From Verrucomicrobiia bacterium (GTDB taxonomy: Bacteria; Verrucomicrobiota; Verrucomicrobiia; Limisphaerales; UBA8199), in NCBI GenBank assembly GCA_035946615.1, contig DASYZB010000062.1:1-57528 (forward strand): 57,528 nucleotides of DNA, read 5' to 3'. Of the stretch, positions 546-57,528 are shown one piece after another; position 1 is the stretch's first letter, and each line of letters opens with the position of its first letter. A program made the translations under genes and the position numbers. The notes below the pieces were generated by a model that did not search any database, had not been told where the DNA came from, and was given only the letters and a program-made list of their open reading frames with translations.

Positions 546-2878
546 GACGCGGTCAAAGTCCATTAGCCATTCCACTTTACAGGAATACGGATGTGCCGGT
601 TGCGCGTCGTGTTAAAGACCTGCTTGCGCGCATGAGGCTCGAGGAAAAGGCCGCACAAATGACGTGCGTCTGGCAGCAAAAGGCTCAAAAGCTCGTGGAC
701 GCCGATGGCAATTTCGACCCAACCAAGGCCAGGGCTGCGTTCAGGAAAGGGCTCGGCCTGGGCCAGGTGGGCCGCCCTAGTGATGCTGGCGCCCCAGCCA
801 CCGCGCCGTGGATGGGACGCACGGCGCGGCAGATGGCTGAGTTGACCAACGCCGTTCAGAAGTTTTTCCTGGAGAACTCGCGACTTGGCATTCCGGTCAT
901 CTTTCACGAGGAATGCCTGCACGGCCACGCGGCCCGTGAGGGCACGAGTTTCCCCCAGCCCATCGGGCTGGGCGCCACGTTCAATCCGACGCTGGTCGAG
1001 CGGCTCTTCACCATGACAGCGTACGAGGCGCGGCTCCGCGGCACACATCAGGCGCTCACGCCGGTGGTGGATGTTGCCCGTGACCCACGTTGGGGCCGCG
1101 TCGAGGAGACCTATGGCGAGGACCCTTACCTGACCACCCGGATGGGTATCGCTGCGGTCCTTGGATTCCAGGGCGACGCCACATTCAAGGACAAGAAGCG
1201 CGTCATGGCGACGTTGAAGCACTTTGCCGCGCACGGGCAGCCGGAGTCGGGCCAGAACTGCGCGCCGGCTAATATTTCGGAGCGCGTGCTGCGCGAAACC
1301 TTCCTGCAACCATTTCGAGAGGTAATCCGCGAAGCCGGGGCTGTTAGCGTGATGGCTTCCTACAACGAGATTGACGGTGTGCCCTCTCACGCCAATAAGT
1401 GGCTGTTACAGGACGTGCTTCGCAGAGAATGGGGGTTTAAGGGATTTGTAGTTTCGGATTACTACGCAATCTGGGAACTGGGTTACCGTCCCGACACCCA
1501 TGGACACTTCGTGGCGAAGGACAAAAGGGAAGCCTGCCGGCTGGCTGTTGAGGCTGGTGTGAACATTGAGCTGCCGGAGCCGGATTGTTACCTCCATCTG
1601 GTCGATCTGGTTCGCAAGGGCGCCCTCAAAGAAAAGCAGCTCGACGATCTGGTCGCCCCGATGCTGCATTGGAAGTTCCAGATGGGCCTGTTCGACGATC
1701 CTTACGTCGATCCGGAGGAAGCAGCCCGGGGAGTTGGCTGCGAAGCACACCGTGAGTTGGCACTCGAGGCTGCACGGGAAACAATCACGCTGCTCAAGAA
1801 TGAGAACAACCTGGCGCCCCTCGATGCTTCAAAGCTAAGGACCATCGCGGTCATCGGGCCAAATGCCAACCGAATGTTGCTGGGCGGCTACAGCGGGCTG
1901 CCCAAGCACAACGTTACGGTGCTCGAGGGCATCAAAGCCCGGATTGGTGATCAGGTGACGGTGCTTTATGCAGAAGGTTGTAAGATCACCCAGGGCGGCT
2001 CCTGGCAGGAGGGCGCTGTTGTCGCGAGCGATCCAGCCCAAGACCGGAGACAGATTGCCGAGGCGGTGGAGGTGGCGAAGCAGGCCGAGGCGATTGTGCT
2101 GGCTATCGGCGGCAATGAACAAACATCGCGAGAAGCTTGGGGCCTCAAGCACATGGGCGACCGCACGAGCCTGGATCTTATCGGGCTCCAGGACGAACTG
2201 GTGGACGCGATGCTGGCTACCAGCAAGCCGGTGATTGTGTTTCTGTTCAATGGCCGTCCGCTATCGATCAACAAGGTGGCGAAGGACGTGCCGGTCATTT
2301 TTGAATGCTGGTATCTGGGCCAGGAATGCGGCCTGGCACTGGCGGAGGTGTTGTTTGGCGACGTGAATCCGGGTGGCAAGCTCCCTATCTCCATACCGCG
2401 CTCGGCGGGACATCTGCCCGTTTTCTATAACCATAAGCCGTCGGCGCGACGCGGTTACCTCTGGGACGACGTTTCGCCCCTGTTCCCGTTCGGCTTTGGA
2501 CTTAGTTACACCACGTTCAAGCTGCAAAATGTCCGGCTCGCTAAGAAGCGAATCACTTGCGAGGGTTCGACTCGTGTTTTGGCGGATGTGACCAATACCG
2601 GTAAACGCGCCGGCTGGGAAGTGGTGCAGATGTACATCCGCGACTGCGTCAGTTCGGTCACCCGGCCCGTTAAGGAGTTGAAGGGGTTCAAAAAGGTCTG
2701 GCTCCAGCCCGGTGAAACGAAGAAAGTGGGGCTAGACATCACGCCTGAATCCTTGGCGTTCTACGACGTGAACATGAAATACGCGGTTGAGCCCGGCGCC
2801 TTCGAAATCATGGTCGGGAACTCATCTCGCGACGCGGACTTGCAGAAGTTGATTCTGACAGTGACCAAACAACCCTGA
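542..2878 (+). CDS. Glycoside hydrolase family 3 beta-glucosidase/beta-xylosidase
   Basis: About 778 residues from the ATG that overlaps the upstream stop; a GTG 24 nt earlier keeps frame but would lie inside the upstream gene. The order is the usual GH3 plan: TIM barrel with VARDPRWGR and the KHF motif (K226-H227), the nucleophile in VVSDYYAIWE (Asp ~306), the alpha/beta sandwich (ITLLKNENNLAPL, GGNEQTSREAW), and a C-terminal fibronectin-III-like domain (TNTGKRAGWEVVQMY). No signal peptide is visible, so it probably acts in the cytoplasm on oligosaccharides brought in by the next gene's symporter (gap 7 nt). Length and domains fit bacterial beta-xylosidase/beta-glucosidase enzymes; substrate specificity cannot be read from sequence. 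Confidence 0.95.
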   Translation: MRRGQSPLAIPLYRNTDVPVARRVKDLLARMRLEEKAAQMTCVWQQKAQKLVDADGNFDPTKARAAFRKGLGLGQVGRPSDAGAPATAPWMGRTARQMAELTNAVQKFFLENSRLGIPVIFHEECLHGHAAREGTSFPQPIGLGATFNPTLVERLFTMTAYEARLRGTHQALTPVVDVARDPRWGRVEETYGEDPYLTTRMGIAAVLGFQGDATFKDKKRVMATLKHFAAHGQPESGQNCAPANISERVLRETFLQPFREVIREAGAVSVMASYNEIDGVPSHANKWLLQDVLRREWGFKGFVVSDYYAIWELGYRPDTHGHFVAKDKREACRLAVEAGVNIELPEPDCYLHLVDLVRKGALKEKQLDDLVAPMLHWKFQMGLFDDPYVDPEEAARGVGCEAHRELALEAARETITLLKNENNLAPLDASKLRTIAVIGPNANRMLLGGYSGLPKHNVTVLEGIKARIGDQVTVLYAEGCKITQGGSWQEGAVVASDPAQDRRQIAEAVEVAKQAEAIVLAIGGNEQTSREAWGLKHMGDRTSLDLIGLQDELVDAMLATSKPVIVFLFNGRPLSINKVAKDVPVIFECWYLGQECGLALAEVLFGDVNPGGKLPISIPRSAGHLPVFYNHKPSARRGYLWDDVSPLFPFGFGLSYTTFKLQNVRLAKKRITCEGSTRVLADVTNTGKRAGWEVVQMYIRDCVSSVTRPVKELKGFKKVWLQPGETKKVGLDITPESLAFYDVNMKYAVEPGAFEIMVGNSSRDADLQKLILTVTKQP

Positions 2879-2885
2879 ATCTTCC

Positions 2886-4403
2886 ATGAGCGATAACGAG
2901 CAGAAGCTCTCCTTCTTCGAAAAGGCCGGGTATAGCTGCGCGGATGCCGGGGCGAATTTCGTGTTCATGACGATGGTGCTGTTCCAGCTCAATTTTTACA
3001 CCGACACCTTTGGGCTAAGCGCCGGCGCTGCAGCGGCCATTCTGCTATGGCCACGGTTGTGGGATGCCGTCGCCGATCCGATTGTCGGTATTCTCGCCGA
3101 TCGCACCACCACGCGTTGGGGAAAATTCCGGCCATGGATTCTGTTCACCGCCGTGCCGTGGGCCATCATTATGGTGCTCGCTTACACAACGCCGAAGGGC
3201 TGGAGCATGGCCGCAAGGGTTTCATACGCCGTGATCACCAATACGTTGCTCATGACGGTTTACTCGATGAACAACATGCCCTACGCTGCGCTCGGCGGCG
3301 TCATGACGGGTGACATCAACGAGCGGGCGCAACTGAATTCCTTTCGTTTCATTGCCGTCAACGCAGCGCAGTTCATCGTCGGCGGATTCACCCTGCCGCT
3401 GGTGGCAAAATTTGCCATCGGCCATGACCGACAGTACGGGTGGCGGATGACGATGAGCATCTGGGCAGCGCTTTGTCTGGTATTGTTTCTTATCACCTTC
3501 GCCACGACTCGCGAACGCGTCCAGCCGGCCAGGACCGGGAAGTCATCGCCAAAACAGGATTTCCTCGACCTGCTCAAGAACGGCCCGTGGCGGGTCATGT
3601 TTTTCTGGACGCTCGTGCATTTCGCCATTCTCTCGTTTCGCGGGGGGGCGCTCTACAATTACTACCATTACTACGCCAATAAGGGGGCGATGTTCGATTT
3701 TGTGCAACGCTTCGGCCTGGTGGCGCCCGTCGGCGCGGAGCCGCAGGGCGGAATTCTCGAAACTCTTGGTTATATTGTCCATGGAGACCTTGCCAATCCC
3801 GCAAGCTCCAATGTGGCGGACGTGTTCAACAGCATTATCAACATGCTCGGCACCGGCTTGATTATGATCGTCATTCTGTTGTCGCCGCCGCTGGCGCGAA
3901 GGTTTGGGAAAAAGGCTGTGTCGGCCGGCGGCTTTGCCTTAGCGGCAGTTGGCACTTTGGCGTTTTATCTTTTGTCGCCTGCGAATGTCTGGGGCATGGT
4001 GTGGCTAACTGCCTTTATCTCCATTGTCTATGCTCCCACCATTCCGCTGACTTGGGCAATTTTCGCGGACGTAGCGGATTATTCCGAATGGAGGCTGGGC
4101 CGTCGCTTTACCGGAATGGTTTTCGCCACGATTGGATTCGCGCTGAAGTCCGGCCTGGCGCTTGGCTCCGCATCGTTCCTATGGATCATGCAAGGCTTCT
4201 TTGCTTACGAAACGGCTCTTCCTTCGGCGCCTAAAGCCGTCGCCGGGTATCGCTTCAACAGTGGCGTCGCCGTTGGCGTCCTGTTTGCCATTTGCACAGT
4301 CTTGCTTTTCATTTATCCCTTGAACAAACGAGCGACTATCCAGATGGCCGACGAACTTGCCGGGCGACGACGCAAACTCATGCCCAAACCCGCCACCGTC
4401 TAA
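2886..4403 (+). CDS. GPH-family sugar:cation symporter (MelB/XynB-like)
   Basis: A 505-residue polytopic inner-membrane protein with about 12 hydrophobic segments. The N-terminal motif DAVADPIVGILADRTTTRWG followed by KFRPWI is the signature of the glycoside-pentoside-hexuronide:cation symporter family; PTIPLTWAIFADVADYSEW in the C-terminal half is also typical. There is a long loop (about residues 255-310) between the two six-helix halves. It lies 7 nt after the GH3 gene and is probably co-transcribed with it, so it likely imports xylo- or gluco-oligosaccharides for hydrolysis in the cytoplasm. The imported sugar is inference from context. Confidence 0.92.
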   Translation: MSDNEQKLSFFEKAGYSCADAGANFVFMTMVLFQLNFYTDTFGLSAGAAAAILLWPRLWDAVADPIVGILADRTTTRWGKFRPWILFTAVPWAIIMVLAYTTPKGWSMAARVSYAVITNTLLMTVYSMNNMPYAALGGVMTGDINERAQLNSFRFIAVNAAQFIVGGFTLPLVAKFAIGHDRQYGWRMTMSIWAALCLVLFLITFATTRERVQPARTGKSSPKQDFLDLLKNGPWRVMFFWTLVHFAILSFRGGALYNYYHYYANKGAMFDFVQRFGLVAPVGAEPQGGILETLGYIVHGDLANPASSNVADVFNSIINMLGTGLIMIVILLSPPLARRFGKKAVSAGGFALAAVGTLAFYLLSPANVWGMVWLTAFISIVYAPTIPLTWAIFADVADYSEWRLGRRFTGMVFATIGFALKSGLALGSASFLWIMQGFFAYETALPSAPKAVAGYRFNSGVAVGVLFAICTVLLFIYPLNKRATIQMADELAGRRRKLMPKPATV

Positions 4404-19908: not shown

Positions 19909-20473
19909 GGGCGCTGAGGGTGCAAAGAAAGCGGTGGCCGGTCAACTGCGCGGTAAGGGAGGGAGTTCTACATGCGTAAGTCTAAGGCGTAACGATTCAG
20001 TTTGAACAGGAGACAACAGAAAGCGGAGCGTGAACAGAAAGCCGACACTGTGTCTTGCACCCTTGTGGCTGGTCACTGGACGGTGAGGCGCCGTTTGTGC
20101 CTCTGTTGCCCACAAAAGTGCTTCAAAAATTCCGTTCTCTCCGTTTATTCCTGTTTCTTTCCGTTTCGTTCTGCATGTTTCCGGTTAAGCCGGAAACAAT
20201 TAATTTAGGGACTACTCGCTTTCTTCTGAGGCGCTCCTGGTTTAGCCTCCCCGGCGCGCAAACGAATCGAACGCGGGCATCTATTTCAGAAGCTCTCCTC
20301 TTGGTTGTATTGGTCTCGGTCTGGGCCAGTTCAGCGCGCTGGACGAAAGCTTCGGCCTGAACATTGGGCGCACGCCATTTTCGACCGGTCATGAGCAGGC
20401 GGGTGAAATTGCAGAGCAACAAGCGGCCGGGGTTCAAGGGATTTACAGCGCGGCCTGATGCTGCCATGCAGAA
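19909..20473. other. Intergenic stretch with a short hairpin, no gene recognised
   Basis: 565 nt. It contains a perfect 8-bp hairpin GTTTCCGG-TTAAG-CCGGAAAC at 20177-20197, followed by TTAGGGACTACTC at 20203-20215, which resembles the TTAGGGACTCCTC core of the leader-like repeats at 13.6 and 15.8 kb. Open frames here are short and show no recognisable domain. Confidence 0.5.
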
Positions 20474-53974: not shown

Positions 53975-54601
53975 ATGAAAATCCTCGGAATGTTCACGAT
54001 TGCTTCGTTTCTGCTCTTTGCGACCGTTTGCGCGGCCGACAACCACGAAGCGGACAAAGGGTTGGAGGGGAGTTTGCGAGCCGTTCTTAACGAACGTCAT
54101 GTTCACGTCAACGTCCACGACGGCATTGTCACCCTCGACGGGAAGGTGCCTACCGAAGCGGACCGCCAACGAATCGATTCGCTGGTGCGCGATACCGCCG
54201 GTGTGGTGGCGGTAAAGGACAATTTGAAGGTGACTCTCCCTTCGCCAGGAGTGCTGGGCGCGCAACCCTCGACAGTGCCGGTTTATGCAACTCCTCCGCC
54301 AGTGGTGGCAACCCCAGCACCGGTGGTGACCGTTCCAACGCCGGTGATTATTCCCCAGTATCCCAAGCTCAAGGTGCAGCCTTGGTCGAGCGACGACGTC
54401 TTGGCAGCCAAACGGATTGCCCGCCAGTTGCAAGAGGATGATGTCCCCTCAGCGGGGCTGGAGAATGTGACCATCATGGTCAGGAACGGAACGGTGAGCT
54501 TGCAGGGCACGGCGGGTTCGACCGCTCACGATGCGATCATCGCCTCGATCCAGCATGTTAGCGGCCTAACCGCTATCTACGACCAGTTGCAACGGGATTA
54601 A
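53975..54601 (+). CDS. Exported protein with two BON domains
   Basis: 208 residues; signal peptide (MKILGMFTIASFLLFATVCA) then a BON domain (residues ~28-90, HVHVNVHDGIVTLDGKVPTE, DTAGVVAVKDNLKV), a Pro/Val/Thr-rich linker (~95-130), and a second BON-like domain (~140-205, NVTIMVRNGTVSLQGTAGST). ATG 53975 has AAGGAGAAAGGAG upstream. BON domains bind phospholipid; such periplasmic proteins (OsmY-, DolP-like) protect or maintain the outer membrane under stress. No neighbour suggests a specific job. Confidence 0.9.
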   Translation: MKILGMFTIASFLLFATVCAADNHEADKGLEGSLRAVLNERHVHVNVHDGIVTLDGKVPTEADRQRIDSLVRDTAGVVAVKDNLKVTLPSPGVLGAQPSTVPVYATPPPVVATPAPVVTVPTPVIIPQYPKLKVQPWSSDDVLAAKRIARQLQEDDVPSAGLENVTIMVRNGTVSLQGTAGSTAHDAIIASIQHVSGLTAIYDQLQRD

Positions 54602-54794
54602 GCTTGCAGGTTAACCACAGGCACTGAGGCTCAGAGAAGACTGCGCGAAGCCGCTTTCGGTGGTTTGGTTTTCTCAATGCCTCGGCGCCTGTGCGGGTTG
54701 ATAATTTCGCTACTACGGTTACCAAGGCGCCGAGCAAGCGGCAGAGGGCTCACCCCTTTTAAGGGAGTTAAAGTTGTGGGGCAAAATGAGGGAA

Positions 54795-54834
54795 GCGCAA
54801 TTTGGCGCAACCAAGCGCAATTTACCGCAATTTT
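54795..54834 (+). repeat. Decamer array A (unit GCGCAATTTG)
   Basis: Four consecutive 10-nt units: GCGCAATTTG, GCGCAACCAA, GCGCAATTTA, CCGCAATTTT. Confidence 0.75.
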
Positions 54835-54940
54835 TTCCAGGCGCGGAGGGAGGGAGTACGAAGTTTGACATTGAATTTTTAGAAAGGAGACCACCGATTG
54901 GGGTTTGGGGGCGCCACCGCCGCTGCGGTGCATTTCGTAG

Positions 54941-54990
54941 CTTAATTTACCTTAATTTGGTTTAATCTGGCTTAATTTGGCTTAATGGGG
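54941..54990 (+). repeat. Decamer array B (unit CTTAATTTGG)
   Basis: Five consecutive 10-nt units: CTTAATTTAC, CTTAATTTGG, TTTAATCTGG, CTTAATTTGG, CTTAATGGGG. Confidence 0.9.
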
Positions 54991-55035
54991 GCAAGGGGAA
55001 AACTGCAGAATGCCGCGAAGGAAAACTGAAATAGG

Positions 55036-55075
55036 TCCGGTTGAGTGCGGTTGGCTCCGGTTGACTCCGGTTTTT
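55036..55075 (+). repeat. Decamer array C (unit TCCGGTTGAC)
   Basis: Four consecutive 10-nt units: TCCGGTTGAG, TGCGGTTGGC, TCCGGTTGAC, TCCGGTTTTT. Confidence 0.85.
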
Positions 55076-55270
55076 TTGAGGAAGAGCAGCGAGAGCCAAC
55101 GTGACGAATCGCCAGTAGCCACCGATAGCCAATAGCCGATGGCCATGGCGTATTGAGTATAGAAGAGGGGAACAGGGGGCGGTAAAACAGGGGGGACACA
55201 CCCTCACCCCCTTGTTTTGCCGTCAACCCGTCAGGAACACAGAAAGATGGGCATTTTTTTCAAAAAGATC

Positions 55271-55314
55271 CGTCAATTTCCCGTCAATTATCCGTCAGGC
55301 ATCCGTCAATTTCG
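55271..55314 (+). repeat. 11-nt array D (unit CGTCAATTTCC)
   Basis: Four consecutive 11-nt units: CGTCAATTTCC, CGTCAATTATC, CGTCAGGCATC, CGTCAATTTCG. Two further CGTCA cores lie at 55221 and 55229. Confidence 0.85.
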
Positions 55315-55343
55315 AGATTTCGAGACGCTGGTAGGGGGAAAAA

Positions 55344-55387
55344 ACCGGGCAAGACGCCCGGTGATCTCGCAGGCGAGGACGCCTGCG
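55344..55387. repeat. Two adjacent perfect hairpins (REP-like)
   Basis: ACCGGGC-AAGAC-GCCCGGT (55344-55362) and CGCAGGCG-AGGA-CGCCTGCG (55368-55387), only 5 nt apart, 110 nt before the ATPase start codon. Confidence 0.8.
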
Positions 55388-55496
55388 GCACACGAGGAGG
55401 GGAATTGGGCCTAGAAGGTGCTTTACTGCGGGTGGAGTGGGTTCGGAAATGTTAATCGTTTCTGATGAGAGGCGGATAATTGGAAGGAAATGAAGT

Positions 55497-57167
55497 ATGA
55501 ATAATGATGAAAGCGAGCGAAGAGAAGCAGAGGAGCCCCAGGATAAAAGCAAGGCGGATGTGGCACATCCAGGGCCGGAGGGTAACGGAAGTGGACAGGA
55601 AGCGTCCAAGGACGGGACAGTGAAAGGCAAAGGTTCTGGGGCGGAACAGGCGGGCAACGGTTCAGGCGGCGGCTTGAAAGGGCAGGGAGGTGGAGCGCAG
55701 GCGGCGGAGAGCGCGGGTCCGGGTTCGGAGGGCGCGGCTGAGATTGGGAGCGAGGAGCGGGAGGCGGAGATGGGGCCGGGCGAGGAGGGCGACGGGGTGT
55801 TTGCCAAGGCCGCGGCGTTTGGGAAGGCGATAGGGAACGGGACGGGGGCGGCCGAGGACCTGTATTTATGGGAGGAAGGTGTTGCGGTGGAGCCTTGGGA
55901 TGAGCCGGTGGATGGGAAGGAGTTGCTGAATGAATTGACGCTCTGGCTCAAGCGGTATGTGGTCCTGGCGCAATGGAGCGCGGAGACCTTGGCGCTGTGG
56001 ATAGCACACACCTATGCGTTCGAGTTGCGGCCTGTGGCGACTTACATTGGGATTGAATCGCCGGAGAAGCGGTGCGGGAAGACGACGTTGCTGACGGGCT
56101 TATGCGAATTGGTGAACCGGCCAATTGTGGCGTCGAACATCAGTTCGCCGGCGTTTTACCGGGTGATCGAGGACAAGAAGCCGACGTTGCTGATCGATGA
56201 GTGGGACACGGTGCTGCACCGGAACCGGGAACTGAAGGGGATATTGAATTCGGGCTACAAGAAGAGAACGGCGTATGTGATCCGGATGACGCCGAAGGCA
56301 AATGCGGGAGGTGCCAAGAAGGAAAGCGCCCAGGCGAAAGAGGCAAATGGCAAGGGGCAGGGGAACGGGCTGGAGCTGGGGCGTTTTTCGAGCTGGTGTC
56401 CGAAGGTGATAGCGACGATCAAACATCTGCCTGAGACGCTGGCGGACCGGTGCATTATTATACGGATGGACCGTAAGACGTCGAAGGAGAAGTGCGAGCG
56501 GATGAGGAACCTGGACGGGAAGGATTTGAGACGGAAGTGCGCGCGGTTTGTGGCGGACCACGCGCAGGAGATAGCGAAGGCGCAACCGGAGTTGCCGGAG
56601 GATTTGAACGACCGCGCGGCGGACATTTGGGAGCCGCTGCTGGCGATAGCGGACCTGGCTGGGGGAGACTGGGCGGAGAAGGCGCGGCAGGCGGCGGTGG
56701 CATTAACGGTGGGGGCGCAAGAGGAGAGCCCGATTGGAACACTGTTGCTGGACATCTGGGTTCTGCTGTTGCAGCAGGAGAGTGATGAGAACAACCAGTG
56801 GATGAAAAGCAGCGGCGGGGTGAGGATGTTCAGCAGGGACATCGTGGCAGGGCTGAACCGGAGCGAGGACCGTCCGTGGGTGGTGATGCGGCGGGGAAAG
56901 GAAGTGACGGAGCGGTGGCTGTCGCAGCAGTTGAATCCGTATGGAGTGCGGCCGCGGACGATATGGATTGGGGAAGTTTCGGCAAAGGGATATATGGCGG
57001 AGGATTTCACTGAGACATTCCGGCGGTATATGCCGAAGGCGATGGCGCAGGCGTTTTTGGATGAGCAGGCGTCGATGCGCAAGAGGTATGAAGCGGAGAA
57101 GGCGAGATTGGCGGAGGAGGCGAAGAAGAAGGAGGGTGGGAATGGGGACAGCAGACAGGGGGGATGA
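55497..57167 (+). CDS. DUF3631-type P-loop ATPase of mobile-element character
   Basis: 556 residues from ATG 55497 (GGAAGGAAA upstream). Residues 1-110 are low-complexity, rich in Gly, Glu and Ala. The DUF3631 ATPase region follows (~130-480): AQWSAETLALWIAHTYAFEL, Walker A ESPEKRCGKTTLLTGLCELV, Walker B KPTLLIDEWDTVLHRNRELK, and an arginine-rich region IKHLPETLADRCIIIRMDRK. The C-terminus is a charged coiled coil (RKRYEAEKARLAEEAKKKEG). Such proteins occur in plasmids, prophages and integrated elements, often next to primase or replication functions. The coding strand is unusually G-rich, unlike the C-rich genes at 33-40 kb. Precise activity unknown. Confidence 0.85.
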   Translation: MNNDESERREAEEPQDKSKADVAHPGPEGNGSGQEASKDGTVKGKGSGAEQAGNGSGGGLKGQGGGAQAAESAGPGSEGAAEIGSEEREAEMGPGEEGDGVFAKAAAFGKAIGNGTGAAEDLYLWEEGVAVEPWDEPVDGKELLNELTLWLKRYVVLAQWSAETLALWIAHTYAFELRPVATYIGIESPEKRCGKTTLLTGLCELVNRPIVASNISSPAFYRVIEDKKPTLLIDEWDTVLHRNRELKGILNSGYKKRTAYVIRMTPKANAGGAKKESAQAKEANGKGQGNGLELGRFSSWCPKVIATIKHLPETLADRCIIIRMDRKTSKEKCERMRNLDGKDLRRKCARFVADHAQEIAKAQPELPEDLNDRAADIWEPLLAIADLAGGDWAEKARQAAVALTVGAQEESPIGTLLLDIWVLLLQQESDENNQWMKSSGGVRMFSRDIVAGLNRSEDRPWVVMRRGKEVTERWLSQQLNPYGVRPRTIWIGEVSAKGYMAEDFTETFRRYMPKAMAQAFLDEQASMRKRYEAEKARLAEEAKKKEGGNGDSRQGG

Positions 57168-57528
57168 CCACCCTGGAAAAAGCGGGCCGCGGCCTGGGGG
57201 GGAAAATCAAAGCCGAGTTGGTGGCGGCTTGAGCTCTTGAGGGGTGTGGGAGGGGCGTGGAGTTGGGCTGCGCCGCCCAACTTGAGCCGCGTCAATGGGG
57301 GAGCCAAACCAACTAACTATGGGAAACCCCTTCGCCACGGCATCATCGGCCAGATAATGAAAGGACCGTGGGATAGACTACAAACAGAGGATATTCGGGG
57401 AATTTAGTGGCTGAGTTTGGGTAGAAGGGGAAGGAGCTTTTAGAATGAAGGCGGTTGGAACGGTATGATTGCACGCTGGAGGGCGGTAGGCGGAACTGAG
57501 ATCCAAACGCTTCGCGCTGGCCTTCGCT
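57168..57528. other. Window end: hairpin, repeat copy, no certain gene
   Basis: Holds a hairpin GTTGGGC-TGCGCC-GCCCAAC (57262-57281), possibly the terminator of the ATPase gene, and the repeat copy at 57361-57390. An open frame starts at ATG 57465 (MIARWRAVGGTEIQTLRAGL) and runs off the window; 21 codons are too few to judge. Confidence 0.5.
57361..57390 (+). repeat. Dispersed repeat copy, partner of the one in the sugar-kinase gene
   Basis: AAGGACCGTGGGATAGACTA followed by CAAACAGAGG; differs from 53459-53488 at four of 30 positions. Confidence 0.7.

Follow-up and report, generated by a model that had tools for sequence, protein, structure and literature searches.

In SaPI and SCC elements, the C-terminus of a helicase is described as binding repeats downstream of the helicase gene (PMC7581432). 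The SaPI/PICI origin, as set out in parts of two reports, lies directly 3' of the gene, where a self-loading helicase binds iterons via its C-terminus beside an AT-rich region (PMC7581432, PMC6092414). DUF3631, a domain of unknown function, is also known as RepAM, and the part of one report that deals with it describes RepAM as responsible for the autonomous replication of pMEA300 and predicts RepAM proteins to be rolling-circle initiators, a mode that does not fit an AAA+ helicase (PMC3218068). Here we describe a verrucomicrobial DUF3631 locus for which the SaPI/PICI origin, by analogy, is the closest working model. Two further systems serve as background. In RAYT/REPIN systems, a single gene is accompanied by short non-coding cognate sequences scattered about the genome, and the cyanobacterial short tandemly repeated repetitive sequences are short intergenic tandem arrays, of 7 nt, dispersed in the genome. 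Among the papers searched, DUF3631 appeared in a single article, and no paper linked DUF3631 with tandem repeats; for short tandem repeats in Verrucomicrobia, and for 10-bp repeats and iterons, nothing to the point was found, as judged from the listings.

The window, by which we mean the whole 57,528-nt stretch that was analysed, is one entire contig out of the 161 that make up a 5.6-Mb assembly. It encodes, on the forward strand, a DUF3631 (RepAM-like) AAA+ ATPase of 556 aa (55497-57167) with a predicted C-terminal winged helix at about residues 435-511, and the contig ends 361 nt past this gene. The protein matched PF12307 with 128.8 bits, against a curated cut-off of 24. In 59 sequences, the G and K of a GxxxxGK(T/S) motif were invariant and a DE(x)D motif was nearly so; we take these motifs of DUF3631 to be Walker A and Walker B, respectively. 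The same genome holds four DUF3631 genes plus fragments. The AlphaFold model of residues 121-556 (mean pLDDT 89.4, pTM 0.82) shows an AAA+ core together with a winged-helix-like domain at the C-terminus, and VIA-align matched 233 residues of the AAA+ core with MCM at Z 18.2. Foldseek found the C-terminal region of the NrS-1 primase-helicase (E 2.1e-6) and SaPI5 PriRep1 (E 4.4e-5, TM 0.36), with AAV Rep40 also high, the TM-scores of the top-ranked matches being low (0.25-0.38). As modelled, the window protein appears to have the fold of an origin helicase (AAA+). The C-terminal domain modelled alone had a pLDDT of 84.3; the VIA-align matches of the winged helix alone were weak (LmrR and TubR, with Z up to 4.2), too weak for use. 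A PDB sequence search with the protein returned no chain at E 1. A preliminary description of this DNA had considered an integrated element, a reading that our analysis did not support: the open reading frame list, with three proteins run through Pfam, gave no integrase beside the gene. The packaging and partition readings of that description likewise gained no support. Contigs C86, C65 and C69 end in copies (99-100%) of the last 141 bases of the window (57388-57528), and on C86 the copy interrupts a gene with a HipA N-terminal domain. The assembly is probably broken here by an insertion sequence, of which this segment would be one end.

Inspection of open reading frames found no convincing gene within 54602-55496, in agreement with the preliminary description, and the four tandem arrays that it had reported there (A, B, C and D) were all recovered by TRF and were well above chance when compared with shuffles. 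On the forward strand, array A (54793-54833, units GCAATTTGGC, TRF period 10/20), array B (54938-54986, 10-nt units CTTAATTTGG; 54940-54986 by TRF) and array C (55035-55072, 10-nt units CTCCGGTTGA; 55036-55072 by TRF) each belong to a dispersed array family, and array D (55270-55297 by TRF, period 11) is the second half of a longer arm. A lag scanner applied to 54750-55350 detected three arrays in the real sequence, against none in 999 and one in 1 of 1000 dinucleotide shuffles; array A was detected at lag 20 only. At the same threshold, lags 10, 11 and 20 gave no further arrays in the whole 57.5-kb window, and TRF at its lowest score gave weaker period-10/11 rows elsewhere, e.g. at 20130-20171. 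Outside the window, 312,406 bases of the same genome (21 contigs chosen by number, 19 read from the contig start and 2 internal) held three arrays at lag 10 and none at lag 11 or lag 20. In 276 kb from five to six related genomes, the counts were 0 (lag 10), 2 (lag 11) and 25 (lag 7).

The four arrays had been called unrelated, which is too strong a claim for A, B and D, as nnnnATTT is common to these three. Hairpins had also been reported here. An inverted repeat with 16-nt arms, 88% complementary (55180-55195/55207-55222), does adjoin the first D box; a second hairpin, at 55341-55392, is GC-rich (GCAGGCGAGGACGCCTGCGG) and is a separate dispersed repeat, also matched in other genomes of the order. 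Nor is the region as a whole unique: 54700-55400 (701 nt) gave 31 own-genome matches, self included. A sister module on contig C127 gave 56, and several modules sit a few hundred bases from contig ends. A plasmid or phage origin of the region was rejected, since 54700-55330 had no blastn match in plasmid or phage collections.

The arm to which array D belongs (55220-55308, forward strand) is a set of CCGTCA boxes, all on one strand, that start at 55220, 55228, 55270, 55281, 55292 and 55303. The gaps between box starts are therefore 8, 42, 11, 11 and 11, and the arm ends 188 nt 5' of the DUF3631 gene. Within the 42-nt gap lies an AT-rich stretch (55253-55269, forward strand, ATTTTTTTCAAAAAGAT), where other arms have a GCGATTTT motif; among 33 arms compared, the gap motif ATTTT often lies about 8-14 nt ahead of the third box. 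Two paralogs in the same genome each have an arm upstream of the gene, one with CGTTACA boxes at gaps of 8, 42, 11, 11 and 20 (C148) and the other with CCGTCCC boxes at gaps of 8, 43, 11, 10 and 9 (C136). No convincing arm was found for a distant paralog on C131. Because the box letters vary by paralog, each initiator would have its own sites. As at iteron origins, direct repeats near helical spacing adjoin an initiator gene in the window. The earlier suggestion of an iteron-like replication site suits array D, since its box spacing recurs at DUF3631 genes and DUF3631 is a replication-initiator family; it does not extend to A, B and C.

The spacing of the window arm recurred, with different box letters, next to DUF3631 genes of several phyla and of viral contigs. 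A letter-free triplet detector (an identical 6-mer at 0, +8/9 and then +41-46) gave 128 raw overlapping hits near the genes, at 37 of 87 DUF3631 loci in 249 kb, compared with 18 hits in 580 kb farther from the genes and 0.33 per replicate in shuffles; an exact triplet near the gene was absent at 50 of the 87 loci. When a fresh set of viral contigs was searched with unchanged settings, there were 31 hits near the genes (14 of 53 loci, 155 kb) and 2 farther off (257 kb). Some of the near hits in both sets look accidental (e.g. 57228 in the window, and L031). A free gap scan over 80 named loci (the best 80 of 176) and the 53 viral ones ranked (8,45) and (8,43) as the top two gap pairs near the genes; farther off, plain tandem repeats led. 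At the same best 80 of 176 named loci, 18 lag-9 arrays fell in the two 250-nt bins just 3' of the domain and 12 in all other bins. The top repeated 7-mer just 3' of the domain beat 30 shuffles at 50 of 78 testable named loci, compared with 3 of 77 controls, and was present on both strands at 49 of these 50. Thirty different top 7-mers occurred among the 50 loci, a few of them not box-like.

In phage-type genes, the arm layout is mirrored and lies inside the 3' end of the gene. The locus L114, for example, has CGTCACA at 23, 31 and 74 on the plus strand and at 92, 135 and 143 on the minus strand, and mirrored boxes are also present in a sequenced Pseudomonas phage (L192). Since neither gap length, 8 or 43, is divisible by 3, the constraint within the coding 3' ends is on DNA. 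Many actinobacterial DUF3631 genes carry 9-nt arrays at their 3' end, which at first looked to us like peptide repeats; that impression was dropped for this reason and because of the mirrored copies, and we read these arrays as DNA sites. A conserved small gene of about 97-99 aa directly follows the phage-type DUF3631 gene at L114 (6281-6580) and L113 (6254-6547); its product presumably resembles a TubC-type docking domain. Arrays with a 7-nt unit, such as (AAATCGA)n and (AGTCCAA)n, occur inside or at DUF3631 reading frames in this and related genomes (L031, L076, L084).

An arm was found at 9 of 13 verrucomicrobial standalone DUF3631 loci (the window, C148, C136, L092, L093, L096, L099, L120 and L125), the 13 not being independent genomes, as several come from G004, G009 and G011. 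The L092 arm lies 2.3 kb from its gene. No arm was found at L094, which has less than 300 nt of upstream sequence, or at L095, L117 and L146, all three from one assembly. With a stricter arm detector, 588 kb of background yielded 4 hits; two of these are one low-complexity palindrome, and the other two (L191, L203) resemble real arms, of their genome's own type, in arbitrary stretches with no DUF3631 gene in view. The L203 arm (G009:C1:19265) lies between genes that, from their reading frames, resemble ribH and ribAB.

These data suggest, with a probability that we put at roughly 0.7, that the DUF3631 (RepAM-like) AAA+ initiator helicase, whose gene begins 188 nt past the arm, binds 55220-55308 as its cognate site. 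In the likely mechanism, every subunit would use its C-terminal winged helix to recognise one CCGTCA box, and the 8-42-11-11-11 spacing would align the subunits for loading of the AAA+ ring next to the AT-containing gap, which would then be opened. The two mirrored 3' arms of phage-type members are as expected of a two-hexamer origin; the verrucomicrobial type has a single arm, upstream or downstream. As a unit of about 95-120 nt, the arm has also been copied to unrelated places. The layout, its association with DUF3631 genes, the paralog-specific boxes and the dispersed copies are observations; binding, loading, strand opening and replication are predictions. That the window arm still starts replication is a guess to which we give somewhat less than even odds.

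Arms are also dispersed away from DUF3631 genes, which raises the alternative that a single-copy DUF3631 gene serves them in trans as a selfish or domesticated repeat population, in the manner of REPINs and RAYTs, with origin use past or secondary. The dispersed unit in the window (55195-55314, forward strand) spans about -25 to +95 from the first box, with 6 copies in its own genome. Exact-pattern searches there found 6 CCGTCA, 6 CCGTCCC and 3 CGTTACA arms, and each box type had one copy seen beside its own DUF3631 paralog (window, C136 and C148), as this alternative would have it. In two related genera, an arm lies beside a DUF3631 gene on C100 and C311 of G009 and on C56 of G011; the C100 arm has one altered box and was picked up by the arm detector, not by the exact pattern. 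Among 97 genomes, the CCGTCC pattern occurred only in the own genome (6), G009 (3) and G011 (6), and the CGTKACA pattern in the own genome (3), G009 (7, and 7+1 with the altered arm), G087 (4, forming a mirrored pair at each of two DUF3631 genes) and G035 (1). Reversed patterns gave 0 in every genome listed. These copy numbers are low, which counts against the alternative. DUF3631 was present in 9 of 58 searched genomes and in G087; 6 of the 9 had neither of the two box patterns searched, and G035 has its arm without DUF3631, which also speaks against service in trans.

Similarity between copies ends at the arm edges, which favours the alternative: in G009 it was 0.97 over the first two boxes, 0.71 in the gap and 0.24-0.25 in the flanks, with boxes 1-3 exact in 7 of the 8 G009 copies because the searches required it. 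A tblastn search of 26 array or arm loci found no DUF3631 remnant, again in keeping with the alternative, and orphan arms adjoin unrelated genes. On the other hand, no spreading mechanism was seen, and 4 of the 5 other D copies (C3, C76, C112, C127) lie 67-176 nt from a contig end, and a CCGTCCC copy on C19 lies about 290 nt from one, so that a DUF3631 gene beyond is possible there. More flanking sequence is present at C136-end, C10, C21, C133, C150, C48, C152 and seven G009 copies. The dispersed copies suggest a second role or selfish spread, and we regard service in trans as a tentative reading, possible and not favoured. Equally tentative is the broader idea of a DUF3631 helicase on verrucomicrobial chromosomes with a population of its own dispersed iteron arms, letters matched per paralog, as a helicase-based counterpart of RAYT/REPIN, with either the helicase as the agent of spread or the host having put the helicase to use at many chromosomal sites.

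Instead, the arm might have no part in replication and serve as a multi-box operator, at which the gene's transcription is controlled by its own DUF3631 product or by a nearby regulator. An upstream position, as in the window, C148, C136 and L093, would suit an operator, but the arm is downstream in L096, L099, L120 and L125, is mirrored inside the 3' end of the gene at phage-type loci, and stands as an orphan by unrelated genes elsewhere. We therefore consider an operator unlikely.

We also asked whether all four arrays could be slippage products spread by duplication, the likeness of D to DUF3631 sites being coincidental. For A, B and C, neutral minisatellites remain a good reading. Arrays like A were listed at 12 other places in the own genome and arrays like B and C at 4 each; modules carry differing mixes of A, B, C, D, E (CGTTATTTAC), F (CTCCGATTAC), G (TGACATTTGG) and others. 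Arrays A-C are dispersed and clustered, with shared leaders, and are without the arm layout. On contig C60, a fragment of an IS110-family transposase begins about 160 nt past an F array (L019, 291-695). Of 13 DUF3631 loci taken from 7 other genomes (a G030 match left out), none had a lag-10/11 array; such arrays were found within 2.5 kb upstream at 1 of 80 named loci (L124; best 80 of 176), and they occur at own-genome loci without DUF3631. The L124 array, from a Neisseriaceae bacterium, is a long perfect 10-nt satellite (TGGCTTGGGG, 2857-3073) about 2 kb upstream of the gene. We rejected A, B, C, E, F and G as arms with other boxes, since their units were not significantly closer to DUF3631 boxes than shuffled units (8% of 300 shuffles as close). 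Alignments showed no box pair 42-50 nt upstream of these arrays, save for a GCATTTT that precedes A by 42 nt at L172 and L176, which are nearly identical to each other. A reading of the four arrays together as a single DUF3631 feature was likewise rejected, as lag-10/11 arrays are rare at other DUF3631 loci. The preliminary description had held that its functional link would fail if homologous DUF3631 loci lacked such arrays; for the 10-nt arrays it does fail, because they are rare at DUF3631 loci, occur without DUF3631 and have units not significantly closer to its boxes than shuffled ones, and for D it stands. By their sequences, A, B and C appear to be separate dispersed 10-nt families, and their link to DUF3631 is not supported. 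As an account of all four arrays, slippage is nevertheless improbable, although relatives are rich in 7-nt arrays, because the exact spacing recurs with changed letters at DUF3631 genes and slippage does not give an 8-42-11 pattern. A structured RNA element in place of a DNA site, to which the inverted repeat beside D might point, is very improbable, as the boxes within the arm are direct repeats and the best Rfam score over 54600-55500, 19.8 bits for a family whose gathering score is 60, was so low that a known RNA was rejected.

If the cognate-arm reading is right, DUF3631 gains a predicted binding site that is legible from sequence alone. The spacing rule is constant across phyla while the letters change, so the specificity of an initiator for its site could be tested by box swaps. 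If the dispersed arms truly partner a single-copy helicase, they would amount to a new mode of persistence of short sequences in the genomes of bacteria. The arm layout is like the presumed phage start site of the DUF3631 family, and gene-free copies in the own and two related genomes are unusual.

How does the locus compare with the described systems? It shares with the PICI/SaPI origin, as far as the cited parts of those reports go, an AAA+ initiator helicase whose gene adjoins short repeats that include an AT-rich stretch, and the phage-type DUF3631 sites are likewise 3' and two-sided. The initiator family is different, DUF3631 arms have a fixed 8-43 outpost pair, and arm copies are dispersed without the gene. 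The PICI/SaPI site is immediately 3' of the initiator gene, whereas the window site is one-sided and 188 nt 5' of it. Since the window fits in its initiator, repeats and AT-rich gap and not in its single upstream arm, we did not file it as a PICI-type origin. The RepAM modules of actinomycete ICEs such as pMEA300 share the PF12307 domain, but the part of the report describing them names putative nick sites, not box arms (PMC3218068), and no ICE genes were recognised beside the window gene. Like the cyanobacterial short tandemly repeated repetitive sequences, A-C are dispersed arrays; unlike them, the window units are 10-11 nt, not 7 nt, and several types are clustered. With RAYT/REPIN, the locus shares one gene with dispersed short non-coding cognates, copies that lie away from the gene, most of the other D copies being near contig ends. 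The partner in the window is a DUF3631 helicase-type ATPase and not a tyrosine (Y1) transposase, and DUF3631 arms are iteron arms of 3-8 copies, whereas REPINs are palindromes.
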